64,000 bases of DNA from Sitta carolinensis (taxonomy: Eukaryota > Chordata > Aves > Passeriformes > Sittidae), in contig JAVUNC010000004.1 of the NCBI GenBank assembly GCA_032173965.1, forward strand, positions 23,227,001-23,291,000, read 5' to 3'. Position 1 is the first letter of the stretch, and each line of letters starts with the position of its first letter. Positions 19,991-57,932 of the stretch are shown here, piece by piece. The notes beneath the pieces were generated by a model. That model saw nothing but the letters and a program-made list of their open reading frames with translations. It was not told the origin of the DNA and made no database searches. The position numbers were made by a program, and so were the translations under genes.

Positions 19991-20886
19991 CCCACCGACT
20001 CAAGAAACCCAACTCAAAAGAGAAAGACCAAGCATACAGGTTAATCAGCATGAGAAGAGGGAGAGTCATTAAACGATAGAGGATTGAATACTAATTATTA
20101 AGAGAACTAGGCAACTTGTAGTCAATGAACGTTAATGCCTTTGCTTGCCAACATGAATAAATAGTAAAAAGTTGTCCTGAATTTTTGGAATACCACCGAG
20201 CAACCAGGCTGGAATAACTGAAATGAATAGCCAATGTCTCTCTTAAGTATGTGATTATTGTTTCCTTGCGCACTGGGTAACAAACCCAGGTTTTCTGGAC
20301 ACTTCCACTGGGCTGGCTCCGAGGCAGCTGCACCTCAGGGACATGGTCAGGACACAGCGAGCAGGGGACAGGCTTGCAGCCGCCGAGGCAGCAGCGACGG
20401 TGTCACCAGGCGGGAGGCTGGGGCTTCAGCCCCTGTGCAAGGGGTGCCAAGCTCTCCTTGTGCCAGGGCCTCTGGCACGAATACCGGGATCTCTGTGGGG
20501 AATCCTGAAACAGCACGGCCATGCACGGAGCTCGTCCTGGCATAGAGTCAATACCCACAGGCCAAGTTTTCTGGTTTGGGTTTCTGACAGCACTCAGCAG
20601 CTGCAAGTGTTGTCTGAATGCTTCAGTGAGGCAGGAAGGAAGCAGCTTGTGCAGCAACTCTCTTTAAGACATGCTTTGCTGCTGAAAAACATGGGTTTAT
20701 TTCCTTTTTTGATGATGAAAACCGGTCCCAGCTGCATGACATTTCTTATTGAAGAAACTGTTGGCTTTAGCAAGAGCTACAGTGCCCTGAGTTTGCCCAG
20801 CTGAAAGCTGCTACTGCTCTAGTTTGAGCTGCATTTAGGGCACTGGCTCTTTCTTTTACAAACTTGGTTTACTTGGTGTTTAAATA

Positions 20887-20985
20887 ATATCACAGAATCA
20901 TAGAATGGTTTGGGTAAGAGGGACTTTAAAGATCATCTAGTTCCAACCCTCCTGCCCTGGGCAGGAACACATTTCACCACATAAA
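20887..20985 (-). mobile_element. CR1 LINE 3' tail
   Basis: Reverse-strand CR1 terminus: on the + strand it reads CACAGAATCATAGAATGG, then GATCATCTAGTTCCAACCCT and CCTGGGCAGGAACAC. It is part of the duplicated unit; the matching copy is at 29219-29317. Confidence 0.85.
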
Positions 20986-21578
20986 TGCACATATTCACCA
21001 AGGTTCCATAGTCTTGCTAACCGCAGCAGTGGAGCTTGATTTAAGTGATTAGAACGAACAACTCCAGTACAACCTGTGTTAAACTTGGTTTAATATACAG
21101 CAAAATAAGTCAATATGGATTCCAACATTCCAAGGTCTCACTAGCACCTGACACCATCCTGACTCCTTCCTCAGAAAGTTTTAAACTGGTGACAAGCATT
21201 TGTTTCTCAGAGTGTGCAGGGTGCTTTTAGCTGCTACAATAGACCTTCTGATAAAGGAAACATTGGTGAAGCTGCAATATAAGACTTTAAGTGTCTAGTG
21301 ACAAAACAGAGGTGCGGTAGGACTTCTGGTCCAAGCATATTCCAAGTTAAGCTCAGAGGAAAGCTGAATCCAAACCTTTCATCCTGACCTAGCCAGAACC
21401 TGCAGGCTTTTCCTGGCATCTCCCAGAAAACATACATGACCTACTGTTTGGGATAATCTCTCCTCGTTTTCCAACAATTCTTGTGAATGCCAGAGAAACA
21501 GAACCAGACAGATTTTAGGCATAGAAGTAGCAGCAAGAAATCAAGGAACAGCTGGGTTTTGAGTATCAATAATAAGAC

Positions 21579-21584
21579 TTTATT
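21579..21584 (-). terminator. GSTA: Polyadenylation signal of G2
   Basis: AATAAA on the - strand, 244 nt past the G2 stop codon, in sequence shared with G3. It lies outside the divergent island at 21753-21877, so both genes keep the same 3' end signal despite different 3' UTR interiors. Confidence 0.6.
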
Positions 21585-21827
21585 TCAGGTATTCCCTTTA
21601 GTTATTTAAGGCATCCTGTGTTGTCCATTGCACTCCCCAAGCAGTGAACTATCTCCTTTGCTGGCATGCTCATGTAGCTTTACATTGAAGACTCTGCAGT
21701 AGGCTAAAACCAATCCTGTAGCTAAGGAAAGAGAGATCAAAAACCTTTTTCACACTTTGCATTAATTTGTCTTTTCGACTACAATCAAACTCAATGAAAT
21801 ACAGCCTGTACAGCTTCGGACAGCTGC

Positions 21828-24800
21828 TCAGGACCGGAATATTTTCATTGCTTTGACCACATCTTCTTCTCGTGTTGGTGGTTTCCTCTGGCTGCCAGGC
21901 TGCAGGAATTTCTTTATTGTAGGGATATTACTTATTCTTGCTTTGAAGCTCTATAAAACAAAAACAAAACACCACAGTGCTTAGGAATCATTGCAACTGT
22001 CAGACATTTCAATGTTATCCACACTCTGAAAGTCACATTTACAGCTTGATGCTGCAGAAGAAACTATATGCTTCCTCCTCTTATGCTTTTGGGATGTAGT
22101 GGCAGAACGTGACATACAAAAAGAATATATGAGGCCAGCTAGAAGTTCTTAGGGTGCCTGATTATTTTCCATGTCACTTCTGACCCTCCCATTCTCCCAT
22201 ATTTCTCAGTCAGATTAAACCAGTGGTCCTTTTCTAATTCATTATCCATCCAAACTGCCCACTCATTTACCTGCAAGAGAGGAAATTTGGCAAGTATATC
22301 AGGTTTGTACTCCTCTGCCATTAAAATGATTTCAAGTAATTGAACATCTGCCCTGCTCAGCTGGTTGCCAACCAGAAAGTCTTTTCCATGGTCTTTCAAA
22401 ACCTAAAAACAGAGAACGAGAAGGAGATGATGCCTTTTCTCTGTGTTACTTAATATATTATCTTCAAAGCAGGGTCACACATTGCATGGAGCTGTCTGTG
22501 AAAGAAGGAAACACAGTTCCAACACCTGTAGTACAAACAGCGACCTGATGGCACTGCCATCCTAGGCATAATCTCTCAGCTCTTTCCCGTCCACATGTCT
22601 GTCTGGCAGCTCAGTTGTGCTCATCTTGTCCTGACTGCTGTAGCTGCACTGAAGGCTAAGCTTTATGAGATACAGAAGGGACTGTAATGCTTTTACATAG
22701 CATGCAGGGTAAAGGGGCATCTGCAGTTCAGGAGGAGACTTGATGTCAAAGCTGATGCTGTAGTGTCTCTTGTCTGAAACAACACACAGGTTGAAACATG
22801 GACATTTGGGGAGCTCAGAGTGTGCTGGGTTTATGCAGTTTTACATCTCTCACAGGTCTTAAGTGCCTTCTGTCCCCTCTGGAGTGTTCTGTTCCCACCT
22901 TACTCCCAGCACCACCAAAACCAGAGCATATATATATTTATATTCCAGCGGTAGTTTTACTTCTGTTTTCCTCCATAGAACTTGTGTGCTCCCAGGATGG
23001 AGGTTCAAGGGAACCTTACTGATTGAAGGACAACCTCTTTGCCACATACCTTCTCAAAGACAGGGAAGTATCTGTTTGTTGCCTTGTCCATCATATTAGC
23101 AAAATGTTCCTCCTTTTTGTCTGCTGGCTGGACAACATACATTATGAGTAACTCATTCAGATCGAACATTCCTTCCACATACATATCGATTCTGAAAGGC
23201 ACAGATCCACTTGGTCAGGTCAAACGCAGTAGGTGTGAAGAGCAGAATAGCTCCTGGCATATCCTCACTGAGATGCTGGGAAATCCCTGCCTCTTCTATC
23301 CCACACACACATACCCTGTCAAACTTCCCCCAGGAATGCAGTTGCACTGGTGGCAGGCTGGGGTGAGCTTGGGTGAAAGACAAATGCAAAATTCCTTGGC
23401 AAAACCTAAAGACTGTGCCCCTTTCACTTCTTACAAGGACTGACACTTCTCAAGACTATGGGTTTTTGAAGCTAACTACAAAATTGTCACGTTTTCCTTC
23501 CAAATTTCTGTTAAGGATCCAATCAAACAGGCTATGTTTAACAGCAGGTCCACACCATTTCTAGCAAGTATCTTGACATGTGTTTACCAGTGCTTAGGAA
23601 TTTGAAGCATTCAAAAATACCTCAGGTCCAAACAGTGTCCCAGGAGTCCTCTCCTTTAATAACCTCTTATTAATTCTAATTCTATAGTAATTCCTGGCTA
23701 TCAGAAGGATGATGGGTTTTATTTCCTTAAAAGACAGTGCCCTGAATGTGATGAGGAGAAAATGATGCTGATGATAACTGCAGGAGAAAATGAAAAGCAG
23801 CATCAGTAAGATAATCTGCCCCTATGACTGCTTTCTTCTAATGACTGCATTGACCTCTGATTGATGATTCATGGGCTCACTTGCCCTGTCTAATCTAGCT
23901 GGCTCTCACTGCTGTAGACATCACCTGCAGACAGTCATCTCACACTGCACAAAGGGCTGCTGTCTCCCCCTGAATGGAGCTGTGAGCTGGGATATCCTGG
24001 TGTTACACCAAGCTACAGTGTCAGCTGGGGTCTAACAAGCACAGGTGGCACTGTTACAGTACAGGGCTCTCTCCTTGAGGTCCTTCCCGTAGAGGTTGTA
24101 CTTCATTGCTATGTAGTTGGCAATGGCTCTGGTCTGCACCAGCTTCATCCCGTCGATCTCTACCATGGGCACTTGCTGAAAGAGCAAGGAACCATCTGGG
24201 GAAAGGGAATAACACAAGGAGATGTTCAGACCCTGAATGAGAACCATGAATGTGTGTTAGGCAGAGCAACCACATGTATTATTTTTATTGAGAATCTGAA
24301 TCATTTAGGCTGGATAAAAAATCCTAAGCCCATCAAATCCAACTGTGAACCCAACGATGCCAAATTTCACCACTAAAGCATGTCCCCAAGTGCACATCTA
24401 CACACAGCCACTCAACCACTTCCTTGGGCAGCCTGTTCCAACGCTTGACAACCCTTTTGAAGGAGAAGAGAACCTTCCTCCTTCTTACAAGAAGGTGTGG
24501 AAAATGCTCACCATGCAACAACCTTTTCTTAGCAACATCTTAATACCTTAATACTATAGCAATGAACCTGTGGAAATTTCAGATTTGAGGAAACAGCCAA
24601 ACGCAGAGCTTTCAGCTGTCACACACTTAAAAATACATGCACTCCATGTCCCTAACTCAGGTGATTTTCAAGGAGGTTAATACACATGAGAAGGATGGAA
24701 GGATCTGACCCAGCCAGTTTCTGTCATGCCTTGCTAAAAATATCTGGACTTTCTAAGTGCTGGCCAGCATATAATGTGAACAATAATGAAAATATATATA

Positions 24801-26382
24801 ACAGTGAAGATAAAAGCATAAAATGTCTTTGTGACTACTTTATTGACTTTACAAATGGAATCTCATCCGTGCAGGCATGAAGTGGGGACAATGAGCAAGT
24901 TCCATGGGATTCCTGCAAGACCCAAATATGACTTGGAGTGAGGCTGGAGCCATGTAACTCTTTTGCTAGCCTGCAGAAGCCTTGTCCTAGCACAAAAACT
25001 CAGAAATCTGGAACTCTGTTACCATGTGGATTATAAAACAACAACTTTGTAGGCAACCTCAAATGCTAATGAATTTCACAATGATCTGATGACAAAAGCC
25101 TCTATATTGCCATAGGGTGGAAGGCAATGGACACAAGATGAAGCAAAGGAGAGTTTACCATCTGAACTTAAAGAAAAGCTCTTTGACTCTGTGCATTGTC
25201 CAGAGAAGCTGCAACTTCTCCATCCTTGGAGAAACTCAAAACCCAGCTGGACATGGTCCTGTGTAACTGGCTGGAGGTGGCCTTGCTTGAAGAGGGGAGG
25301 TGGAGTAGACAATCTTGAGAGGTCCCTTCTGACCTCAGCCTTTTTGTGATTCAGTGAAGATTGAAGCAACTGGGTGGATGATACCACCTAACATACTGCA
25401 GCGTGAACCTCTGCGACCTCATGTACAATCCAGTTAGGAGATTTTCTTGTTAAGACACTAAGACTTAAGAATTCATAGGTGTACTCAGACAAGTAATTCT
25501 AGTCCTACTTATAATTCTGATTCTTCTTATTATTACCATTGCAGCTGCTTTTATTTAAAAGTAGGAAACTTACCTTTCTGTAACTTTGTCAGATCCTCCT
25601 TTTTTTCCAGGTAAGATTCTTCAAACTGCAGGAAATAGAAAAGAAATTTGCTGTCATTCCATGTTTCGGCTTTCTCCGTTTTTAGGTAAAGAGAGCCCAA
25701 AGAGATGTGTTTTGGTAAATTTTATTTTTAACACATAAACTGTATTTGAAAGCTTCCAGGCAAATTTGCCATGACTGTGAGAGAAACCCATGGCTCTTGA
25801 AATACACAGATTCCCCACACAGATATTGAAACACTACATCTCTGGTTTAACATCAGAATCTGGTGGAGGTAAAGAAACATCACTCTGTGGTTAACAATAT
25901 ACAGTACGTTCAAATGTAAACTACATTGTGGCCGCAATAATAATCTCTTGCTATTTTGTGCCTTGGAATTTAACTGAAGGCACTCAGAACTGCAGGTGCT
26001 TGATCTCTGTGATCAGAAGATGAGAAGCCAGGTTCTGCTGCTGGGGTTTTAAATTTTTTCATTCACTACCAACAGGGGACAAGCATTTGTGGTGCTACCA
26101 GTGGGCTTTGCACAGGATGTGTGGAAGCAAGACAGGAACTTGCCCCTGCTCAGGGTAAGCTCATGGATACTGTTGGCTTGCTCAGCAATGCACTGAAGGC
26201 AGAGTTTGAAACTGCTGCTCAGTCACACTTTTCATGAGGAATAGTGAAAGCACATATTTGTCACATGATCTCAGTATAAAAGACGAGAGGCAAACCTCAA
26301 CTCCAGCTGCTGCCAGTAGCCACCGAATTGGTTCCATTCGGCCTCGTCCATTGAAGTAGTGCAGCTTGGGTTTTCCAGACAT
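21828..26382 (-). CDS. GSTA: Alpha-class glutathione S-transferase, gene G2
   Basis: Coding exons in transcription order: 26382-26296 (ATG), 25625-25574, 24195-24063, 23191-23050, 22402-22271, 21950-21828 (stop TGA); 222 residues, all GT-AG and in phase. Begins [17 protein letters not shown] with catalytic Tyr9 and Arg15; Gln54-Val55-Pro56, Gln67-Thr68, Asp101 and Arg131 are present, so the glutathione site looks intact. Substrate-pocket positions (human GSTA1 numbering): Phe10, Glu104, Ile107, Met108, Val110, Val111, Thr208, Val213, Ala216, Phe220, Ser222. Exons 3, 4 and 6 are identical to those of G3, and the protein differs from G3 only at position 10, within 107-114 and from 207 on. Family role: cytosolic dimeric glutathione transferase for electrophiles and lipid peroxides. 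Non-coding exon 1 is probably at 28.01-28.04 kb. CR1 pieces sit in introns 3 and 4. Confidence 0.93.
24285..24530 (-). mobile_element. CR1 LINE fragment in G2 intron 4
   Basis: Reverse-strand CR1: on the + strand it reads AATCATTTAGGCTGG, ATCAAATCCAACTGTGAACC, then CTTGGGCAGCCTGTTCCAAC, matching the CR1 3' end. It lies between exons 3 and 4, and the duplicate copy is at 32641-32886. It is noticeably mutated, so the insertion predates the duplication. Confidence 0.85.
25150..25365 (+). mobile_element. CR1 LINE fragment between G2 exons 3 and 4
   Basis: Sense-strand CR1 end: TTGGAGAAACTCAAAACCCA, then AGAGGTCCCTTCTGACCTCA and a GTGATTCAGTGA tail. The duplicate is at 33506-33721. Confidence 0.8.
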
Positions 26383-27394
26383 GTTTCCACGTGACTGATT
26401 CCTTAGTATTTGCAAGGAAAACAAAATTAGTTTTGTACAATAAAGGTTCACAATCCTGGTTTGGAGTCTAACTGGCTCTCAAAGTTGTCTTGTTTGAAAC
26501 CATAATTTATTGTTCTAGACTTTAATCAAATCAATAGAGAAGGTGAAAGTTAGACTAAATTGATAGAATATCTGCCTTCAAATGCTTCTTGCATATGCAG
26601 GATAGTTAATTAGAACTCTGTACTTAGAGCAATTCACCCAGTCAGAGAACCAGTGAATATCAAAACCATTTGCATCCAAAGTGTTCTGACCAATCAGCCA
26701 AGGGTGCTCTCTGTATGCATTTTGGCATTATCTCAGAATACAGTTTACTACTTAATCAGACACATGCTATAAACTCATATTTACTTTTGCTGCACTTTCT
26801 CCAGCAGCCATTTTGCCCCACTATAACTGGACAGGAAGAAATCCTTTCCACCAGTAAACCTCTTTTACAACACTCCCTGCTTCTGTCATTTCTTTAGACA
26901 AGCCTCTAAAACATAGAAATTAATTTTACCCTGGTAACATCAGGTAATTTGCCTTTACCATGGGCACAGGCACAGGGCAATGCTTGCTTGGTCCAGTTCC
27001 AACTCTGCTGGAATTTCAGGCAACAGTTTCTAGGTAGGAATTTAATGCCACAAGAGTTTCTAGGCAGATTGCCACCCACCCCACTCAGAAACAGACGTTC
27101 ATATTAGTGACCAACACACAAACAGTGCCCAGCATCTACCAGCCTCACAGCGATTGGCACCCTGTCAGCAGCAAAGCTGAAGCATTAACAGCAGCAAAAG
27201 AAAACACACAGAGGAAACAATCCCCACTTCTGAGAGCTACACTTCTTGTTCTTAATTCTGTACACTGCGAAAGCAGCTCATTAAGAATTTAACGTTTGGT
27301 ACATATAACCATGTTAGTAAAGAAAGTACATAGACACTACTAATCTATAGAATGCATTCACTGGCTGAGTTTCACATACAACCTCTCTCTGCAT

Positions 27395-27995
27395 GTCCAA
27401 AATAATATCCTCATATTGGGGTGGGAGAGACAGGGAAGACTGAGAGGCATTATAAAGAATGTTTCATTGGACAATCAGTATCATTAAAGGTGTTACTTGC
27501 AATGCCCTCATGTCAGAAGCCGAGCTAATTCCAATTACGAGACCTTTTAAGCATTTCTTAGCCAATCAAGTATTTCCACAAAACTTACTTTTACACCAAT
27601 CATGAACTGCTTTGCTTTACATCGCTCTGCCACAACGTGTCTTTTCTCATCCAATCATATAACACTACACCAACTTATATCGATTCATCTGAAATTTCTC
27701 ACTAACTCTATTAGTGAGATTATAACTTATAATAAAGTTCTACTATTAAACTTTAACATCTTCTATTGTTTAACTAGTTCCATACTTTTGCATTAACATA
27801 AAGTATATTTTTGATTACTTAAGGCATATTTGTACTTAAACTACAAACCCATATTTCAATTCTAGTCTCTGTAACTTTTGTCTATAACTGTAACAACTCT
27901 CAAAGCCTTCTCCAAGATCTTAAGTCAAACACTGTATCCATCTCTACCTCTGAGCCTGCACGCACAGGGCTCTCAGAATTCTCTGTGCCTCCAAT
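27395..27995. other. About 600-bp segment in G2 intron 1 absent from the G3 unit
   Basis: Flanks align between units (GTTTCACATACA here, GTTTCATGTACA near 36.40 kb; and the exon 1 donor on the other side), but this AT-rich block has no counterpart in the G3 unit. It contains several CCAAT-type motifs (GCCAATCAAG, ACCAATCATG, TCCAATCATA) and a perfect 8-bp hairpin, CTCACTAA / TTAGTGAG, with a 5-nt loop at 27698-27718. It may be a degraded LTR inserted in unit 1, or unit 3' material lost from the G3 unit. I could not find a clear target duplication. Confidence 0.5.
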
Positions 27996-28013
27996 TCCAA
28001 CATCCCCACTTAC

Positions 28014-28072
28014 CTTGAGCACAGTGTAGCTCACTCTAAACCCTCAGCAGTTCTGCCTTCAGATTATATAAC
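28014..28072 (-). promoter_or_regulatory. GSTA: G2 promoter and probable non-coding exon 1
   Basis: On the - strand, GTTATATAATC (28072-28062) is a TATA box; about 30 nt downstream transcription should start near 28038, and the short exon ends CTCAAG at 28014 before a strong GTAAGT donor. The same arrangement, with substitutions, is at 36462-36519 in the G3 unit; conservation of the TATA box and donor in otherwise diverged DNA supports the call. Splicing to coding exon 2 would remove about 1.6 kb. A TGACTCA motif lies about 0.5 kb upstream in both units. Confidence 0.6.
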
Positions 28073-28889
28073 TCTGTAGCCCCTCCTATAGAGAACTGCA
28101 AACACTTCTCAGCAAATAGGAAACTTCTCTCTCTTAAGCAAACAGAAACAATTATCTCGGTTTAGTTACTTTTCACCTACAGGAACTGAATCCCTGACTA
28201 ATGCTGACTATGTACAAATGTAAGACAGATGAGAGGTCATGATCACTGGAAACATCTATGCCAGTACAAAATGGTAATATGCCTCCTATTTCCTAGTTAA
28301 AAATAATTATAACAGATGAAGGACTCAGTTTATAAAAATACTTCTATGTCAAAACCAATTTTATTCTAATATTTCATGGAGTTTTTTTACTTCTTACACA
28401 TTGACCACTTTACATAAATCACATCAACTAATTCAGCTCAAATCTGTCACAAGCTTCTATGCATTACTTAGTGTATATTCCTTCAGGACACTTCGGCTGA
28501 ACTTCATCTCTGCTTTTGAATTTTTTTCTGTCCAAAATGTTTCCATGAATTTGACTCAGTGAAAATACACACTAACGACAGCTGTAAGAGACAGTGAATG
28601 AAGTATGGTATCAGAAGTCAAACTGCCCTCTGCACTCCTGACTGTTTACTTTGCACAACTATATTGATTTCAAAAAGTTAGTGCAGAATAATCCAAGAAA
28701 CACCATCCAGCCTATCTAATCTATGTGGTTAATATTGATGTAGGTATTACCTGCAGTTAAGGTCAAAAAATACATGCAAAATTTTGCCGAATTGCCCTGA
28801 ACATAACTACAAGCTGGGATATCCTTCCTCTGTTACACCCGGAGGTTGTATAAATTGCAGTGCATCACACAAAAAAAATTGGTTACTAC

Positions 28890-28938
28890 AATAGGAGGGG
28901 CTTTCTCCTTCAGTTCCTTCCTGTACACTTACAGCACA
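28890..28938 (-). pseudogene. Truncated GSTA exon 4 relic at the duplication junction
   Basis: The + strand GGGGCTTTCTCCTTCAGTTC followed by CTTCCTGTACAC corresponds to the 3' end of a GSTA exon 4 (the GKDLKERA region on the - strand). It stops abruptly where unit 2 begins. The more complete relative is at 37250-37350, so this is the piece left on unit 1 by the tandem duplication. Confidence 0.6.
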
Positions 28939-29218
28939 TGTTGTCTGAATGCTTCAGTGAGGCAGGAAGGAAGCAGCTTGTGCAGCAACTCTCTTTAAGA
29001 CATGCTTTGCTGCTGAAAAACATGGGTTTATTTCCTTTTTTGATGATGAAAACCGGTCCCAGCTGCATGACATTTCTTATTGAAGAAACTGTTGGCTTTA
29101 GCAAGAGCTACAGTGCCCTGAGTTTGCCCAGCTGAAAGCTGCTACTGCTCTAGTTTGAGCTGCATTTAGGGCACTGGCTCTTTCTTTTACAAACTTGGTT
29201 TACTTGGTGTTTAAATAA

Positions 29219-29317
29219 TATCACAGAATCATAGAATGGTTTGGGTAAGAGGGACTTTAAAGATCATCTAGTTCCAACCCTCCTGCCCTGGGCAGGAACA
29301 CATTTCACCACATAAAT
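29219..29317 (-). mobile_element. CR1 LINE 3' tail, copy in unit 2
   Basis: Duplicate of the CR1 terminus at 20887-20985, same orientation and boundaries. Confidence 0.85.
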
Positions 29318-29909
29318 GCACATATTCACCAAGGTTCCATAGTCTTGCTAACCGCAGCAGTGGAGCTTGATTTAAGTGATTAGAACGAACAACTCCAGTA
29401 CAACCTGTGTTAAACTTGGTTTAATATACAGCAAAATAAGTCAATATGGATTCCAACATTCCAAGGTCTCACTAGCACCTGACACCATCCTGACTCCTTC
29501 CTCAGAAAGTTTTAAACTGGTGACAAGCATTTGTTTCTCAGAGTGTGCAGGGTGCTTTTAGCTGCTACAATAGACCTTCTGATAAAGGAAACATTGGTGA
29601 AGCTGCAATATAAGACTTTAAGTGTCTAGTGACAAAACAGAGGTGCGGTAGGACTTCTGGTCCAAGCATATTCCAAGTTAAGCTCAGAGGAAAGCTGAAT
29701 CCAAACCTTTCATCCTGACCTAGCCAGAACCTGCAGGCTTTTCCTGGCATCTCCCAGAAAACATACATGACCTACTGTTTGGGATAATCTCTCCTCGTTT
29801 TCCAACAATTCTTGTGAATGCCAGAGAAACAGAACCAGACAGATTTTAGGCATAGAAGTAGCAGCAAGAAATCAAGGAACAGCTGGGTTTTGAGTATCAA
29901 TAATAAGAC

Positions 29910-29915
29910 TTTATT
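29910..29915 (-). terminator. GSTA: Polyadenylation signal of G3
   Basis: AATAAA on the - strand, 272 nt past the G3 stop codon; the counterpart of the G2 signal at 21579-21584. Confidence 0.6.
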
Positions 29916-30186
29916 TCAGGTATTCTCTTTAGTTATTTAAGGCATTCTGTGTTGTCCATTGCACCTCCCCAAGCAGTGAACTATCTCCTTTGCTGGCATG
30001 CTCATGTAGCTTTACATTGAAGACTCTGCAGTAGGCTAAAACCAATCCTGTAGCTAAGGAAAGAGAGATCAAAAACCTTTTTCAAGGTTTCGATTCATTT
30101 GACATGGACACTGTTTTCATTTATTTCACTTTTCTACAAATCTGCAAATAAAATCAAATAGACTTTCTGTGGCTTTAGGGTTCAGC

Positions 30187-33100
30187 TCAGGAGTAGAAAA
30201 TTTTCTTCACTTTATCCACAACTGCCTGATTTGACAGTGGTTTCCTCTGGCTGCCAGGCTGCAGGAATTTCTTTATTGTAGGGATATTACTTATTCTTGC
30301 TTTGAAGCTCTATAAAACAAAAACAAAACACCACAGTGCTTAGGAATCATTGCAACTGTCAGACATTTCAATGTTATCCACACTCTGAAAGTCACATTTA
30401 CAGCTTGATGCTGCAGAAGAAACTATATGCTTCCTCCTCTTATGCTTTTGGGATGTAGTGGCAGAACGTGACATACAAAAAGAATATATGAGGCCAGCTA
30501 GAAGTTCTTAGGGTGCCTGATTATTTTCCATGTCACTTCTGACCCTCCCATTCTCCCATATTTCTCAGTCAGATTAAACCAGTGGTCCTTTTCTAATTCA
30601 TTATCCATCCAAACTGCCCACTCATTTACCTGCAAGAGAGGAAATTTGGCAAGTATATCAGGTTTGTACTCCTCTGCCATTAAAATGATTTCAAGTAATT
30701 GAACATCTGCCCTGCTCAGCTGGTTGCCAACCAGAAAGTCTTTTCCATGGTCTTTCAAAACCTAAAAACAGAGAACGAGAAGGAGATGATGCCTTTTCTC
30801 TGTGTTACTTAATATATTATCTTCAAAGCAGGGTCACACATTGCATGGAGCTGTCTGTGAAAGAAGGAAACACAGTTCCAACACCTGTAGTACAAACAGC
30901 GACCTGATGGCACTGCCATCCTAGGCATAATCTCTCAGCTCTTTCCCGTCCACATGTCTGTCTGGCAGCTCAGTTGTGCTCATCTTGTCCTGACTGCTGT
31001 AGCTGCACTGAAGGCTAAGCTTTATGAGATACAGAAGGGACTGTAATGCTTTTACATAGCATGCAGGGTAAAGGGGCATCTGCAGTTCAGGAGGAGACTT
31101 GATGTCAAAGCTGATGCTGTAGTGTCTCTTGTCTGAAACAACACACAGGTTGAAACATGGACATTTGGGGAGCTCAGAGTGTGCTGGGTTTATGCAGTTT
31201 TACATCTCTCCCAGTCTTAAGTGCCTTCTGTCCCCTCTGGAGTGTTCTGTCTCCACCTTACTCCCAGCACCACCAAAACCAGAGCATATATATTTATATT
31301 CCAGCGTAGTTTTACTTCTGTTTTCCTCCATAGAACTTGTGTGCTCCCAGGATGGAGGTTCAAGGGAACCTTACTGATTGAAGGACAACCTCTTTGCCAC
31401 ATACCTTCTCAAAGACAGGGAAGTATCTGTTTGTTGCCTTGTCCATCATATTAGCAAAATGTTCCTCCTTTTTGTCTACTACTTGGTACTGGTATTTAAT
31501 GAGTAACTCATTCAGATCGAACATTCCTTCCACATACATATCGATTCTGAAAGGCACAGATCCACTTGGTCAGGTCAAACGCAGTAGGTGTGAAGAGCAG
31601 AATAGCTCCTGGCATATCCTCACTGAGATGCTGGGAAATCCCTGCCTCTTCTATCCCACACACACATACCCTGTCAAACTTCCCCCAGGAATGCAGTTGC
31701 ACTGGTGGCAGGCTGGGGTGAGCTTGGGTGAAAGACAAATGCAAAATTCCTTGGCAAAACCTAAAGACTGTGCCCCTTTCACTTCTTACAAGGACTGACA
31801 CTTCTCAAGACTATGGGTTTTTGAAGCTAACTACAAAATTGTCACGTTTTCCTTCCAAATTTCTGTTAAGGATCCAATCAAACAGGCTATGTTTAACAGC
31901 AGGTCCACACCATTTCTAGCAAGTATCTTGACATGTGTTTACCAGTGCTTAGGAATTTGAAGCATTCAAAAATACCTCAGGTCCAAACAGTGTCCCAGGA
32001 GTCCTCTCCTTTAATAACCTCTTATTAATTCTAATTCTATAGTAATTCCTGGCTATCAGAAGGATGATGGGTTTTGATTTCCTTAAAAGACAGTGCCCTG
32101 AATGTGATGAGGAGAAAATGATGCTGATGATAACTGCAGGAGAAAATGAAAAGCAGCATCAGTAAGATAATCTGCCCCTATGACTGCTTTCTTCTAATGA
32201 CTGCATTGACCTCTGATTGATGATTCATGGGCTCACTTGCCCTGTCTAATCTAGCTGGCTCTCACTGCTGTAGACATCACCTGCAGACAGTCATCTCACA
32301 CTGCACAAAGGGCTGCTGTCTCCCCCTGAATGGAGCTGTGAGCTGGGATATCCTGGTGTTACACCAAGCTACAGTGTCAGCTGGGGTCTAACAAGCACAG
32401 GTGGCACTGTTACAGTACAGGGCTCTCTCCTTGAGGTCCTTCCCGTAGAGGTTGTACTTCATTGCTATGTAGTTGGCAATGGCTCTGGTCTGCACCAGCT
32501 TCATCCCGTCGATCTCTACCATGGGCACTTGCTGAAAGAGCAAGGAACCATCTGGGGAAAGGGAATAACACAAGGAGATGTTCAGACCCTGAATGAGAAC
32601 CATGAATGTGTGTTAGGCAGAGCAACCACATGTATTATTTTTATTGAGAATCTGAATCATTTAGGCTGGATAAAAAATCCTAAGCCCATCAAATCCAACT
32701 GTGAACCCAACGATGCCAAATTTCACCACTAAAGCATGTCCCCAAGTGCACATCTACACACAGCCACTCAACCACTTCCTTGGGCAGCCTGTTCCAACGC
32801 TTGACAACCCTTTTGAAGGAGAAGAGAACCTTCCTCCTTCTTACAAGAAGGTGTGGAAAATGCTCACCATGCAACAACCTTTTCTTAGCAACATCTTAAT
32901 ACCTTAATACTATAGCAATGAACCTGTGGAAATTTCAGATTTGAGGAAACAGCCAAACGCAGAGCTTTCAGCTGTCACACACTTAAAAATACATGCACTC
33001 CATGTCCCTAACTCAGGTGATTTTCAAGGAGGTTAATACACATGAGAAGGATGGAAGGATCTGACCCAGCCAGTTTCTGTCATGCCTTGCTAAAAATATC

Positions 33101-34739
33101 TGGACTTTCTAAGTGCTGGCCAGCATATAATGTGAACAATAATGAAAATATATATAACAGTGAAGATAAAAGCATAAAATGTCTTTGTGACTACTTTATT
33201 GACTTTACAAATGGAATCTCATCCGTGCAGGCATGAAGTGGGGACAATGAGCAAGTTCCATGGGATTCCTGCAAGACCCAAATATGACTTGGAGTGAGGC
33301 TGGAGCCATGTAACTCTTTTGCTAGCCTGCAGAAGCCTTGTCCTAGCACAAAAACTCAGAAATCTGGAACTCTGTTACCATGTGGATTATAAAACAACAA
33401 CTTTGTAGGCAACCTCAAATGCTAATGAATTTCACAATGATCTGATGACAAAAGCCTCTATATTGCCATAGGGTGGAAGGCAATGGACACAAGATGAAGC
33501 AAAGGAGAGTTTACCATCTGAACTTAAAGAAAAGCTCTTTGACTCTGTGCATTGTCCAGAGAAGCTGCAACTTCTCCATCCTTGGAGAAACTCAAAACCC
33601 AGCTGGACATGGTCCTGTGTAACTGGCTGGAGGTGGCCTTGCTTGAAGAGGGGAGGTGGAGTAGACAATCTTAAGAGGTCCCTTCTGACCTCAGCCTTTT
33701 TGTGATTCAGTGAAGATTGAAGCAACTGGGTGGATGATACCACCTAACATACTGCAGCGTGAACCTCTGTGACCTCATGTACAATCCAGTTAGGAGATTT
33801 TCTTGTTAAGACACTAAGACTTAAGAATTCATAGGTGTACTCAGACAAGTAATTCTAGTCCTACTTATAATTCTGATTCTTCTTATTATTACCATTGCAG
33901 CTGCTTTTATTTAAAAGTAGGAAACTTACCTTTCTGTAACTTTGTCAGATCCTCCTTTTTTTCCAGGTAAGATTCTTCAAACTGCAGGAAATAGAAAAGA
34001 AATTTGCTGTCATTCCATGTTTCGGCTTTCTCCGTTTTTAGGTAAAGAGAGCCCAAAGAGATGTGTTTTGGTAAATTTTATTTTTAACACATAAACTGTA
34101 TTTGAAAGCTTCCAGGCAAATTTGCCATGACTGTGAGAGAAACCCATGGCTCATGAAATACACAGATTCCCCACACAGATATTGAAACACTACATCTCTG
34201 GTTTAACATCAGAATCTGGTGGAGGTAAAGAAACATCACTCTGTGGTTAACAATATACAGTACGTTCAAATGTAAACTACATTGTGGCCGCAATAATAAT
34301 CTCTTGCTATTTTGTGCCTTGGAATTTAACTGAAGGCACTCAGAACTGCAGGTGCTTGATCTCTGTGATCAGAAGATGAGAAGCCAGGTTCTGCTGCTGG
34401 GGTTTTAAATTTTTTCATTCACTACCAACAGGGGACAAGCATTTGTGGTGCTACCAGTGGGCTTTGCACAGGATGTGTGGAAGCAAGACAGGAACTTGCC
34501 CCCTGCTCAGGGTAAGCTCATGGATACTGTTGGCTTGCTCAGCAATGCACTGAAGGCAGAGTTTGAAACTGCTGCTCAGTCACACTTTTCATGAGGAATA
34601 GTGAAAGCACATATTTGTCACATGATCTCAGTATAAAAGACGAGAGGCAAACCTCAACTCCAGCTGCTGCCAGTAGCCACCGAATTGGTTCCATTCGGCC
34701 TCGTCCGTTGATGTAGTGCAGCTTGGGTTTTCCAGACAT
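30187..34739 (-). CDS. GSTA: Alpha-class glutathione S-transferase, gene G3
   Basis: Coding exons in transcription order: 34739-34653 (ATG), 33981-33930, 32551-32419, 31546-31405, 30761-30630, 30309-30187 (stop TGA); 222 residues, GT-AG junctions and phases as in G2. Tyr9, Arg15, Gln54-Val55-Pro56, Gln67-Thr68, Asp101 and Arg131 are all kept, so glutathione binding should be normal. Compared with G2 the protein changes only in pocket segments: Phe10 to Ile; residues 107-114 read IKYQYQVV instead of IMYVVQPA; and from residue 207 the tail is [16 protein letters not shown] instead of [17 protein letters not shown] lysine at 108 inside a normally hydrophobic pocket is unusual. Expected role: cytosolic glutathione transferase with a substrate range different from G2. 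Exon 1 is probably at 36.46-36.49 kb, with a solo LTR in the intron. Confidence 0.93.
32641..32886 (-). mobile_element. CR1 LINE fragment in G3 intron, duplicate copy
   Basis: Same element as 24285-24530, carried by the duplication and virtually identical to it. Confidence 0.85.
33506..33721 (+). mobile_element. CR1 LINE fragment between G3 exons 3 and 4, duplicate copy
   Basis: Same element as 25150-25365; one G/A difference in the CTTGAGAGG / CTTAAGAGG segment was noticed. Confidence 0.8.
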
Positions 34740-35384
34740 GTTTCCACGTGACTGATTCCTTAGTATTTGCAAGGAAAAGAAAAAGTTTTGCAGTTTTGAG
34801 TCTCTAACTGGCTCTCAAAGTTATCTTGTTCAGAACCACCATTTGTGGTTCAATACTTAAATCAATTAACAGAGGGGTAATTGTCAGAATATATTGAGAG
34901 ACTGCCTTGTCATGCTGCCTTCAAATGTTTCTTACACATGCAGGATAGTTAATTAGAACTTTATACTCAGAGCAATTTGCCCTGATGCCTTAAGTTTTAG
35001 CTTTTTTATTTATTTATTTTTTTTCCAGATTCTGTACTGCCTTAGTGTATGACTGAACTTCATACAAAGTGTTAGCAATTTCTCTTCACAATTTAGTTCG
35101 ACAAAACAATCGTTTTCCAGCCTGTCACTGTTGCAGCTTCGGGCCCAAAAAGTGAAAGCAAGAGTGAATTGAGGAGAGCAATCCGGGAGGATGGGACTTC
35201 CCAAGGTGTATGTATCCTTTTAAGGCCTTTTAATAAATACCTACTTTATTCCTTTAACACTGTATAGCCTCTGTTCCAGGTAGCCTCTTTAGGCATCAGC
35301 CCAATCAGAGAGCAAATTATTTTAAAGTATTTGCATCCCAAGTGTTCTCTTCTGATCAAAGAGCTGAGGGTGCTCTCTGTGTGC

Positions 35385-35679
35385 TGTTACTGTTACGCAG
35401 ATAGACACACACAGCAACACACACAACAAGTGGTCAGGCAGAGATGAAGAAAGGAAGTCTCTAGTTTATTGTTGACCTCGTATATATAAGTTTCTGGACA
35501 GTGATCAGAGATTGGACAGAGAAATTACCACCTCTCCATCTTCACTGGTCACTTGAGAAGTCCATCAGGTGATATCTTTTACAAAGGAATGCAAACATGA
35601 TTCTTGTTTATCTTACAATTCATGAGAACTGACTCTACTATACTAAAACAAATCAGAAAGCTTATTTTCAGAGACAACA
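35385..35679 (-). mobile_element. Solo LTR, 295 bp, with 6-bp target duplication
   Basis: The element begins TGTTAC and ends ACAACA, so it has TGTT...AACA termini, and is flanked by GTGTGC at 35379-35384 and 35680-35685. The empty site survives in unit 1 at about 26712 as a single GTATGC in the same context (CTCT...ATTTTGG). Read on the - strand it has TATATATA near 35485 and AATAAA near 35465, the compact order of avian LTRs; a 6-bp duplication fits alpharetrovirus or ERVK-type integration. No internal retroviral sequence is attached, so it is a solo LTR left by recombination between two LTRs. Confidence 0.88.
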
Positions 35680-36461
35680 GTGTGCATTTTGGCATTATCT
35701 CAGAATACAGTTTACTACTTAATCAGACACATGCTATAAACTCATATTTACTTTTGCTGCACTTTCTCCAACAGCCATTATGCCCCATTATAACTGGACA
35801 GGAAGAAATCCTTTCCACCAGTAAACCTCTTTTACAACACTCCCTGCTTCTGTCATTTCTTTAGACAAGCCTCTAAAACATAGAAATTAATTTTACCCTG
35901 GTAACATCAGGTAATTTGCCTTTACCATGGGCACAGGCACAGGGCAATGCTTGCTTGGTCCAGTTCCAACTCTGCTGGAATTTCAGGCAACAGTTTCTAG
36001 GCAGGAAGTTAAAGCAACAAGAGTTTCTAGGCAGAGTGTTACCCCCTCCACTCAGAACCAGGCATGCACATCAACGACCAACACACAAACAGTGCCCAGC
36101 ATCTACCAGCCTCACAGCGATTGGCACCCTGTCAGCAGCAAAGCTGAAGCATTAAGAACAGCAAAAGAAAACACCCAAACCCCCACCATACTCCCCTTGT
36201 AAATTACATGTCAGCTTCTCTACAGTAGGAAGGAGGTAGGTGAGAGGAAACATCCCTACTTCTGAGACCTAAATTTCTTTTTTCTTAATTCTGTACACCT
36301 CGAAAGCAGCTGATTAAGAATTTAACATTTGGTACACATAACCATGTTAGTAAAGAAAGTACATACACACATTTAATCTACAAGACCCATTCACTGAATG
36401 AGTTTCATGTACACCAACTTCCTGCGTTTTTGGGGAAAAATAAAGAAAAAAATCCACTTAC

Positions 36462-36519
36462 CTTGTGTACAGTGTAACTCACTCTAAGCTCTCAGTGGTT
36501 CTGCCCTCAGATTATATAA
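36462..36519 (-). promoter_or_regulatory. GSTA: G3 promoter and probable non-coding exon 1
   Basis: On the - strand, GTTATATAATC (TATA box, core 36514-36519) lies about 30 nt upstream of an expected start near 36487, and the short exon ends ACACAAG at 36462 before a GTAAGT donor. The arrangement matches the G2 promoter at 28014-28072 despite several substitutions. Confidence 0.6.
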
Positions 36520-37244
36520 CTCGGTAGCCCCTCCTACACCGAGTATTCCAGCAAATGGGAAACTTTCTTAAGCATACAAAATCAATTAGCTCTGTTTAGT
36601 TACTTCTCAACTACAGAAAATAAGTTCCTGACCCATGCTGACTATGTACAAATGTAAGATGGATGAGAGAGCAAGATCACTGGAAACATCTGTGCCAGCA
36701 CAAAATGGTAATATGCCTCCTATTTTCATTGCTTGGTAGCCTACATTAAAAATAATTATAACAGCTGAAAAACTGAGTCAGTTTTAAAAAATACTGCTAT
36801 GCCAAAACTACTTTTATTCTAATATTGGTGGTGGTGGTGTAATTTTTACATATTATAATTTTAATATTTTAATTTTTCCACTTTACATAAATCACATTAA
36901 CTAATTCAGCTCAAATCTGTCACAAGCTTCTATACCTTGCTTAGGGTATGTTCCTTCAGGACACTTCTGCTGAATTTCATCTCTCCACATCTGGGCAGGG
37001 CTTTTTTTTTTCTTTTTTCTGTGAAAAATGTTTCCTTGAATATGACTCAGTGAAAATACACACCAAAGGCAACTGTAAGAGACAGTGAATGAAGTGTGGT
37101 ATTAGAAGGTAATCTGCCCTCTGCACTCCTGACTGCTTTCTTTGTACAACTGAACAGACTTTGAAAAGTCAATACAGCATACATTCCCACGCACCTTCCT
37201 GCCTATCTTATCGACATGGTTAATATTGTTGTAGCCATCACCTG

Positions 37245-37350
37245 CTATCACAGTACAGCAGGCTGCCTCCTTCATGTCCTTCCCATTCACATACTTCATT
37301 GCTTGGTAGCTGAAAATGATCCTTATCCTATCTGTCCTCACTGTTGGTAC
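37245..37350 (-). pseudogene. Dead GSTA exon 4
   Basis: Read on the - strand the segment aligns with a GSTA exon 4: a degenerate VRTDRIRIIFSYQAMKY where intact genes have MVQTRAI..YIA.KY, then VNGKDMKEAA in place of [10 protein letters not shown]. The 5' third of the exon (QVP and EIDGM) is lost or unrecognisable, and no clean splice sites remain. It is an older, separate GST copy; its truncated twin is at 28890-28938. Confidence 0.7.
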
Positions 37351-38263
37351 CTGTTACATGGATGTGTTCCATGCTTAATAATAAAATAAGCTTAACAATT
37401 TATTTAGAGCTAGAACCACAGAAAGACATGGCATCAAAAAAGTCACCCCTGCAATATATTGCTTTTGAGGAAGTACCTAGTCCCCAGATGGAACACTCTG
37501 TACCCCCTATGGCATATAAAGGTGTGGAAGCTCACAGGTCTGTGAGACCCCAGCCCTGCAGGGGCAGAGACAGGCAAGGAGAAACAGCCCTCTAAGGTTA
37601 GGGTGGGAAGAGCCTCACTCCCATAGGCCTTTGCAGGCACATGTTAATTTCTTGAATTCTATTGGTTCGCACAGTTGTTCGCCCCCAGTTCAGCCCCGCT
37701 TTTTTTACATTATTTGTACATCCCCTAGAATGTTCTCCCCTCTCCTGATTCCCATTGGCCCCAGTTTGCCACATTGCTCCACTCTATTTGTAAAGAATAA
37801 GATCCCAAAGACACAAGCTCTTAATTCAAATGTTAGGTTATTGTTAAATGTTGAATGTTAAAGTTCTGGATTTGCCTTTTGTTGTTGTTGTATGTTAAGA
37901 TCCCTTGTGAAGCTGGGGTATGTTCTGCCAATCCTGTATCTGTTACCCTGTATCCATGTCCCCTGTCACTCTGTACCCATGTCCCTTTTGCTAAGGAAAC
38001 CACCCCCGCTGCTCCAGAAGAACCTGGACACGAATTATATGCAAATGACGGGCCTCTGGTGCAGTTAAGACCCTCAAAACAGCAAACTAGCATATAACTA
38101 GAGAATAAAAACTGTAACTCCAGCCTGGCAGAATCACAGAAAATCATATACCAGCAACTGGAGGGTCTGTCCTGTCACCATGACTTGACAGCACTCAGTG
38201 TAAATGACAGCCCTAGACCACGAGCCAACTGTGTCTTCCTGAGGACTCTCGCAAGCACGGAAG

Positions 38264-39360
38264 CCCCAGCTCTGTCAGAGACAAAGCTGTGACCCTCCTG
38301 CTCAGCCCCAGCTCTGCCAGAGACAAAGCTGTGACCCTCCTGCTCAGCCCCAGCTCTGCCAGAGACAAAGCTGTGACCCTCCTGCTCAGCCCCAGCTCTG
38401 CCCAGAGACAAAGCTGTGACCCTCCTGCTCAGCCCCAGCTCTGTCAGAGACAAAGCTGTGACCCTCCTGCTCAGCCCCAGCTCTGTCAGAGACAAAGCTG
38501 TGACCCTCCTGCTCAGCCCCAGCTCTGTCAGAGACAAAGCTGTGACCCTCCTGCTCAGCCCCAGCTCTGCCCAAAGACAAAGCTGTGACCCTCCTGCTCA
38601 GCCCCAGCTCTGCCCAGAGACAAAGCTGTGACCCTCCTGCTCAGCCCCACCTCTGCCAAGAGACAAAGCTGTGACCCTCCTGCTCAGCCCCAGCTCTGTC
38701 AGAGACAAAGCTGTGACCCTCCTGCTCAGCCCCAGCTCTGTCAGAGACAAAGCTGTGACCCTCCTGCTCAGCCCCAGCTCTGTCAGAGACAAAGCTGTGA
38801 CCCTCCTGCTCAGCCCCAGCTCTGTCAGAGACAAAGCTGTGACCCTCCTGCTCAGCCCCAGCTCTGTCAGAGACAAAGCTGTGACCCTCCTGCTCAGCCC
38901 CAGCTCTGTCAGAGACAAAGCTGTGACCCTCCTGCTCAGCCCCAGCTCTGCCAGAGACAAAGCTGTGACCCTCCTGCTCAGCCCCAGCTCTGTCAGAGAC
39001 AAAGCTGTGACCCTCCTGCTCAGCCCCAGCTCTGCCAGAGACAAAGCTGTGACCCTCCTGCTCAGCCCCAGCTCTGTCAGAGACAAAGCTGTGACCCTCC
39101 TGCTCAGCCCCAGCTCTGCCAGAGACAAAGCTGTGACCCTCCTGCTCAGCCCCAGCTCTGCCAGAGACAAAGCTGTGACCCTCCTGCTCAGCCCCACCTC
39201 TGCCAGAGACAAAGCTGTGACCCTCCTGCTCAGCCCCAGCTCTGCCAGAGACAAAGCTGTGACCCTCCTGCTCAGCCCCACCTCTGTCAGAGACAAAGCT
39301 GTGACCCTCCTGCTCAGCCCCAGCTCTGTCAGAGACAAAGCTGTGACCCTCCTGCTCAGC
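38264..39360. repeat. 42-bp minisatellite, about 26 copies
   Basis: A tandem array of a 42-bp unit containing AGAGACAAAGCTGTGACCCT followed by CCTGCTCAGCCCCAGCTCTG. Copies differ mainly by C or T in CTCTG(C/T)CAGAG, by CCACCTCTG for CCAGCTCTG, and by occasional 43-44-bp copies with an added C or A. Around 38.93-39.12 kb the C and T forms alternate, hinting at an 84-bp higher-order unit. Since 42 is a multiple of three, several frames on both strands stay open as 14-residue repeats; I do not regard these as genes. It abuts an LTR-like segment on the right. Confidence 0.95.
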
Positions 39361-55402: not shown

Positions 55403-55533
55403 CAGGAAAGGAAACTTAGAAAGAATGGAGGGTACTTTCTCTTCTACCATCAGGACAGCTTCTATCAGTTGCTGGACTTCCGTCCACAGAAGTTTGACAG
55501 ATATAAAAGACTGTAACCAGTTTGATTCAAGAG
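55403..55533 (-). pseudogene. GSTA exon 6 relic of a sixth gene
   Basis: On the - strand the block aligns over the full exon 6 length (131 versus 132 nt). Its second half is an open frame reading LLWTEVQQLIEAVLMVEEK then VPSILSKFPFL, closest to G4 ([28 protein letters not shown]) but with one extra codon (QQ). The first half (the [10 protein letters not shown] region) is in another frame and strongly altered. The donor side has lost the final Gln codon and the GT. With the exon 4 relic at 57.8 kb it marks a dead GST gene between G4 and G5. I did not find its exons 2, 3, 5 or 7. Confidence 0.8.
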
Positions 55534-57799: not shown

Positions 57800-57932
57800 C
57801 AGGGTCTGTCCTTCAGATCCTTCCCACGGCGGTGTACTCTTCGGGCTCCATGGCTGAGGGTGGCTCCGGGATGCATCGCCTCCCTGCAGCCAGCCCCCAC
57901 CGAGGGCACCTGCGGGAAGCGCAGGGCCCCAC
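57800..57932 (-). pseudogene. GSTA exon 4 relic of the same sixth gene
   Basis: On the - strand this is exactly 133 nt, the intact exon 4 size, with an acceptor CCCCCAG before it and a GT donor after CCCTG, and no stop in the proper frame. The ends match (FPQVP at the start, RGKDLKDRPW at the end), but the middle is scrambled: the Gln67-Thr68 pair that binds glutathione reads His-Pro, and the EIDGM motif is lost. Composition has become strongly GC- and CpG-rich, like the DNA upstream of it. I read it as a decayed exon, although open frame and splice sites leave room for doubt. Confidence 0.7.

Follow-up and report, generated by a model that had tools for sequence, protein, structure and literature searches.

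Background

Several systems are known in which gene conversion between duplicated genes has left divergence spared or peaked at particular places, among them the opsins and GOT1, and conversion also occurs in GST classes other than alpha. The divergence peaks of the red and green opsin genes, which are under gene conversion, have been reviewed (PMC3924837). The tandem pair of alpha-class GST genes described here, u1 and u2, resembles these opsins in that conversion keeps the introns alike and divergence is raised at the function-setting exon. However, in the opsins the peak depends on two main residues of a single exon, whereas the patches of u1 and u2 are square-edged, diverged at the level of subfamilies, and located in three parts of the substrate pocket. 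The Tigriopus paralogs GOT1p1 and GOT1p2 (PMC3728101) also form a conversion mosaic of high and low divergence, and the rare transfer of divergent regions between them yields new proteins; that work includes population data, whereas u1 and u2 represent one sequence, with patches on a defined substrate site.

Conversion between duplicates of GST regions has been described for GSTT2/GSTT2B and GSTM of primates (PMC3375281, PMC5918908), where GSTT2 retains a paralogous coding difference in chimpanzee. These genes are similar to u1 and u2 in undergoing such exchange, but they belong to other GST classes, and the accessible parts of the two papers describe no pocket-wide patches. Mammalian CYP1A1 and CYP1A2 (PMC3199271), like u1 and u2, are detoxification paralogs with segment-wise conversion, but in their case it was the substrate recognition sites (1 and 5) that became alike by conversion, the opposite of the situation in u1 and u2. 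With respect to birds, the alpha-class set of the turkey includes several A1-type genes (GSTA1.1, GSTA1.2 and GSTA1.3) that differ in activity, and the paper on this set (PMC3628786) brings up gene conversion only once, by citing work on the turkey MHC. Among the open-licence papers listed in our searches, none described such a mosaic, by its title or the beginning of its abstract, for a GST array of the alpha class or of a bird.

Detoxification families must shift their substrate range without losing a working fold, and u1 and u2 provide a concrete case, in which most of the coding and intron DNA is uniform and the divergence of the pocket is of subfamily age. A natural mosaic of this kind could reveal by what route these enzymes acquire new targets. 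A new element is that the codons of the patches have diverged at synonymous sites too.

Results and discussion

The tandem pair and its array

The window, i.e. the whole stretch of 64,000 nucleotides that was analysed, carries on its minus strand an array of alpha-class GST genes, in the order A, u1, u2, B and C, together with fragments. Gene A occupies positions 16444-10057, gene B 47450-41472 (with no exon 3 identified), and gene C 63736-61871, where it runs off the window end; the nearest solved relative of gene C is 1vf1, a chicken enzyme. Self-BLAST and global alignment place unit 1 at 20608..28938 (minus strand; an alpha-class GST gene with its 3' and 5' flanks) and its tandem partner, unit 2, at 28939..37290 (minus strand), so that both unit starts of the original prediction, 20608 and 28939, are correct. 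The left edge of u1 at 20608 is sharp; the end of u2 at 37290 is that of the original prediction, and the alignable homology to u1 fades out at about 37245.

In an open splice model, the coding exons 2-7 of u1 (minus strand) lie at 26382-26296, 25625-25574, 24195-24063, 23191-23050, 22402-22271 and 21950-21831, with the stop codon at 21830-21828 (coding span 21828..26382), and those of u2 (minus strand) at 34739-34653, 33981-33930, 32551-32419, 31546-31405, 30761-30630 and 30309-30190, with the stop codon at 30189-30187 (coding span 30187..34739). Each gene encodes an intact protein of 222 residues with normal splice sites, in which the GST_N and GST_C domains both score above the Pfam cut-offs. 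The best PDB matches are likewise alpha-class GSTs, 6zj9 for u1 (residues 1-221, E 7.7e-97) and 1tdi for u2 (residues 1-220, E 1.4e-92), and both translations contain Tyr9 and Arg15, the active-site residues of alpha-class GST (PMC8645602). Compared by eye with the turkey primers (PMC3628786), u1 and u2 have the ATGTCTGG start of the A1 primers, and the coding starts of genes A and B resemble the GSTA2 and GSTA3 primers. These resemblances of A and B, and the relation of gene C to 1vf1, indicate that the host is probably a bird. The tandem alpha-class pair u1 and u2 is probably of the avian GSTA1 type.

Alternating blocks of identity and divergence

The near-identical tract extends over 20608-26421 in u1 and 28939-34778 in u2 and comprises the 3' flank, all coding exons and introns 2-6. 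Outside the two strong patches discussed below, this body contains 10 substitutions and 6 indels, i.e. 16 events in 5,668 sites, introns included, which corresponds to 99.8% identity by substitutions, where about 99.5% or more had been predicted; over their first 987 bp, counted from the left boundary, the two units do not differ at all. When 20608-28754 was segmented against the partner sequence, with a BIC-type penalty and with each gap counted as one event, the 358 difference events in 7,547 sites fell into eight alternating segments. The frequency of difference events is 0.3% in 20608-21752, 45% in 21753-21877, 0.5% in 21878-23122, 62% in 23123-23143 and 0.2% in 23144-26421, and beyond 26421 it amounts to 24% (26422-26715), 0.9% (26716-27034) and 18% (27035-28754), in agreement with the stepped divergence that had been anticipated past 26414. 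The longest identical run is 1,596 bp and exceeds the longest run in 5,000/5,000 shuffles of the differing sites, the largest run among these being 746 bp for the body alone and 293 bp for the whole unit. The run-length permutation and the segmentation both indicate that the blocks of identity are non-random, introns included, and we regard the mosaic structure of u1 and u2 as firm. Purifying selection alone as the cause of the identity was rejected, since the introns and the 3' flank are as alike as the exons. Two clusters of events occur away from the pocket, one in intron 5 (22852..22950, minus strand; partner 31211-31305) with 6 events in 99 bp (p about 5e-5), the other at 21595-21632 with 3 events in 38 bp; these noncoding clusters are only 6-8% diverged.

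The diverged 5' flank of u1 (26422..28754, minus strand; partner 34779-37245) contains intron 1, exon 1 and the promoter. Pairwise alignment yields identities of 82.9% (26422-26640), 89.0% (27035-27345) and 86.0% (28006-28754), and MAFFT yields substitutions at 21.8% (26422-26715) and 17.0% (27035-28754), so that according to the two methods the promoter sides differ by 11-22% substitutions, in addition to large indels. This flank includes a near-identical island (26716..27034, minus strand; partner 35683-36001), with 318 of 322 positions identical (98.8%) over 26713-27034. On the minus strand of each unit the sequence suggests a TATA-like box and the end of a non-coding exon 1, at 28070-28064 with a donor after 28014 in u1, and at 36518-36512 with a donor after 36462 in u2. 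Because Tyr9, Arg15, the TATA-like box and the exon 1 donor are kept in both genes, u1 and u2 may both be expressed, from diverged promoters. Searches of the window with the promoters of u1 (201 bp) and u2 (121 bp) returned in each case only the query itself and its partner.

The segmentation, the run-length permutation and the divergence of the flank thus support the original prediction that the units are older than their bodies look and that the bodies were homogenised recently. Together with the patches, three ages can be distinguished in the pair: the body is recent, the promoter side is for the most part intermediate, and the patches are as old as the subfamilies.

The patches and the substrate pocket

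Patch 1 (21753..21877, minus strand; partner 30085-30236), with 57 events in 126 sites, covers the end of exon 7 (codons 207-222) and part of the 3'UTR. In its coding part (codons 207-221) 19 of the 44 columns differ, and it continues into the 3'UTR for 75 bp in u1 and 102 bp in u2, where 51/69 aligned sites are identical and 18/69 differ; one of 500 shuffles scores as well as this alignment. Patch 2 (23123..23143, minus strand; partner 31478-31498) comprises codons 107-114 in exon 5 and differs at 13 of its 21 bp, as opposed to 0/120 bp in the rest of this exon. The exon 2 pair (26350..26355, minus strand; partner 34707-34712) consists of a replacement, Phe10 in u1 and Ile10 in u2, and a silent change at Asn11; the two substitutions are 5 bp apart, and such a pair would arise from ten random background events with a chance of 0.076. 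Three sharp patches had been predicted; those in exon 5 and at the end of exon 7 were recovered, while the one in exon 2 was reduced to two substitutions that the segmentation missed. In u2, the exon 7 patch (30085-30186) contains an extra AATAAA upstream of the AATAAA common to both units, through which the u2 transcript may end earlier, with a shorter 3'UTR.

All amino-acid differences between u1 and u2, 16 in total, are confined to these three places: residue 10 in the exon 2 pair, residues 108, 110, 111, 113 and 114 in the exon 5 patch, and residues 207-212, 214, 216, 217 and 221 at the end of exon 7. The H-site has been described to include residues 107, 108, 110, 111 and part of Glu104, as well as 208, 213, 216, 220 and 222, and positions 10, 12, 111, 208 and 216 are of particular importance for the ketosteroid isomerase activity (PMC8645602). 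The three places match the three H-site regions known from the literature. H-site residues account for six of the 16 changes (hypergeometric p 2e-4, with the clustered changes treated as independent), and four of the five published specificity positions are changed (10, 111, 208 and 216). Randomly placed segments of 2, 7 and 15 codons all touch the H-site with a chance of 0.005, and hit each of its three regions with a chance of 0.001; if the two strong patches alone are considered, the chance that both touch the H-site is 0.047. The original prediction invoked selection on the H-site. The exceptions to identity are indeed located there, but the strength of the argument depends on whether two patches or three are counted, and we regard the link between patches and pocket as suggestive rather than overwhelming. 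Judging from the published role of the H-site, u1 and u2 would differ in their substrate range.

Age of the patches

In the 26 codons of the patches, differences affect 11.2 of 18.1 synonymous and 22.8 of 59.9 other sites, which gives dS of about 1.3, dN of about 0.53, and dN/dS of about 0.4, while the other 196 codons contain no difference between u1 and u2 (synonymous sites in patches versus the rest: 11/18 vs 0/127, p 3e-12). Exon by exon, exons 3, 4 and 6 are unchanged and exons 2, 5 and 7 have dN below dS. The patches are as diverged as between separate genes of the array: the 13/21 differences of the exon 5 patch compare with 5-15/21 in the other nine gene pairs and the 19/44 of the exon 7 patch with 18-24/44, whereas the remainder of exon 5 differs at 0/120 positions between u1 and u2 vs 31-43/120 in the other pairs, and that of exon 7 at 0/73 vs 14-24/73. 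Outside the patches, dS in these nine pairs is 0.9-1.8 (with exon 3 left out for all genes, and gene C compared without exons 2 and 4). Each of the nine pairs also has a larger dN inside the patch codons (0.37-1.03) than outside them (0.14-0.23), and therefore the patch segments vary fast across the family. The synonymous sites of the patches are also more diverged than the flank stretch 26422-26640 (11/18 vs 33/193, p 1e-4); for the 3'UTR part of patch 1 the excess over the flank is not significant (p 0.11). Because their synonymous sites have diverged to the level seen between GSTA genes, the patches represent old sequence rather than fresh mutations. Calculations of dN/dS or of dates for the whole gene are misleading in this case, as the average dS of 0.08 is composed of 0 in 196 of the 222 codons and more than 1 in the patches.

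Origin of the mosaic

The explanation that we put forward, tentatively, as the best one is that an older pair was recently homogenised and that short pocket segments came from a distant GSTA paralog. According to this scenario, u1 and u2 would have started as an older tandem pair, the bodies of which (3' flank, coding exons and introns 2-6) would recently have been homogenised by recombination, and the pocket segments, perhaps together with the exon 2 pair, would have been written into one copy by short-tract gene conversion, the donor being a third, distant GSTA paralog outside the window. As homology between distant paralogs should be preserved mainly in exons, it would have confined the conversion tracts to exons. 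The outcome would be a pair of enzymes that share their scaffold but differ in substrate pocket and promoter, and selection may have kept these differences. In favor of the import are the alternating segments of very different divergence and the square edges of the patches, with no halo around them. Also in favor are the divergence of the patches at the level of other gene pairs of the array, beyond that of the flank stretch at synonymous sites, as compared with 6-8% in the noncoding clusters of the body, and the position of the three places on the H-site regions. On the other hand, three separate imports at the pocket of one gene would need selection or luck, and the 3'UTR of patch 1 is not significantly more diverged than the flank. 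A search of both strands of the window revealed no donor of the patches: neither version matches genes A, B or C, and apart from the match to itself the u2 exon 5 patch reaches at best 14/15 bp (E 0.32). A local template switch is therefore likewise unsupported.

The main rival, which is also the model of the original prediction and which we consider possible but doubtful, is that u1 and u2 split very long ago, that conversion kept the scaffold and introns alike, and that the pocket segments were never converted, either because selection removed the converted copies or because the dense mismatches at the edges blocked the heteroduplex. This model makes a third donor unnecessary, the succession of ages within the unit points to conversion on several occasions, all three places are those of the H-site, and divergence peaks at functional sites under conversion are known from theory and have been described for opsins (PMC3924837). 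However, u1 and u2 would then have to have separated as early as the subfamilies did (patch dS about 1.3), although the flank shows 11-22% substitutions. Moreover, if conversion touching the pocket were rejected, the neighboring sites would be converted less often and a halo of intermediate divergence would be expected. In a simulation of rejected conversion with two exempt patches, in which events at most 100 bp away from any of the four strong edges were counted, 4.5-6.7 of the 16 events are expected near the edges for mean tracts of 120-2000 bp (uniform expectation 1.1), but 0 were found in the 400 bp concerned. The corresponding P is 0.001-0.008 for mean tracts of 120-2000 bp, and the test loses strength for shorter ones (0.035 for 60 bp and 0.11 for 30 bp), with background events treated as independent, which is only roughly true given the intron 5 cluster. 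If the exon 2 pair is regarded as a third exempt patch, there are 0 events in 566 bp around the edges, and P becomes 0.0003-0.004 (120-2000 bp), 0.016 (60 bp) and 0.05 (30 bp). The missing halo argues against a steady rejection of conversion at the pocket, as had been suggested, although the test would not register tracts that always stop at the patch edge, nor a patchy exchange that happened once and recently.

It is improbable that the whole unit was duplicated recently and that other paralogs then overwrote one copy in its promoter side and its patches. The 100% identity over 987 bp to the left boundary does look like a young junction, but two donors of different age would be needed, one at the level of the flank and one at the level of subfamilies, neither of which was found in the window, and the homology has faded at the right end. 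An assembly artefact, with haplotypes or collapsed reads laid out as a false tandem, is more improbable still. The 0.2% divergence of the body falls in the range of heterozygosity, but the promoter sides differ by 11-22% substitutions and large indels, both reading frames and their splice sites are intact, and N bases are absent; the possibility, named with the original prediction, that two haplotypes were falsely placed in tandem is unlikely given this divergence of the promoter sides. Hardly credible at all is a recent duplication after which the pocket rapidly accumulated adaptive point mutations: all 16 of the 16 amino-acid changes are in the three H-site regions, six of them at H-site residues, but the synonymous and 3'UTR sites have diverged too and dN/dS in the patches is about 0.4. 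The synonymous changes in the patches refute plain adaptive point mutation, and the earlier suggestion that new variants were introduced into the patches by mutation fails on the same grounds, including the 3'UTR.

The imported pocket segments of our preferred scenario, if real, would make u1 and u2 more unusual. A more specific version, which we consider rather unlikely but worth stating, is a natural pocket grafting, in which a distant GSTA paralog, perhaps a pseudogene, would have supplied, by short conversion tracts, the H-site segments of one member of the freshly homogenised pair. Pseudogene donors diversify the immunoglobulin genes of the chicken, which provides an analogy. If this were true, the array would keep one scaffold and import ready-made pockets. 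As to which copy was changed, the evidence points both ways in comparisons with solved structures, none of them a true outgroup of the u1/u2 subfamily: u1 has Phe10, as in the mammalian enzymes compared, and scores higher against the best mammalian chains (with 6zj9, 326 bits vs 311 for u2), while u2 scores slightly higher against 1vf1 (304.6 bits vs 300.6 for u1).

Other features of the array

Several further features were observed in and around the two units. Intron 3 contains a repeat that presumably resembles the CR1 type. In u2, a stretch of about 700 bp (34983-35679) that separates the body from the 98.8% island looks like inserted repeat sequence, with no more than about 85 bp alignable to u1, and in intron 1 of u1 a stretch of 660 bp (27346-28005) has only its self match in the window, opposite a gap of several hundred bp in u2. 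At 38262-39360 there is a minisatellite, the copies of which have a length of about 42 bp and an identity of about 96-98%. Between genes B and C there are isolated fragments similar to GST exon 6 (55403-55471) and exon 4 (57805-57930), perhaps the remains of a decayed gene. Finally, the region upstream of the u2 promoter contains, at 37250-37318 on the minus strand, a decayed GST exon 4 (74%), and a shorter trace of exon 4 (28 bp, 86%) is present at the right end of u1, at about 28898-28925; these exon 4 traces point to older unequal exchanges in the array.
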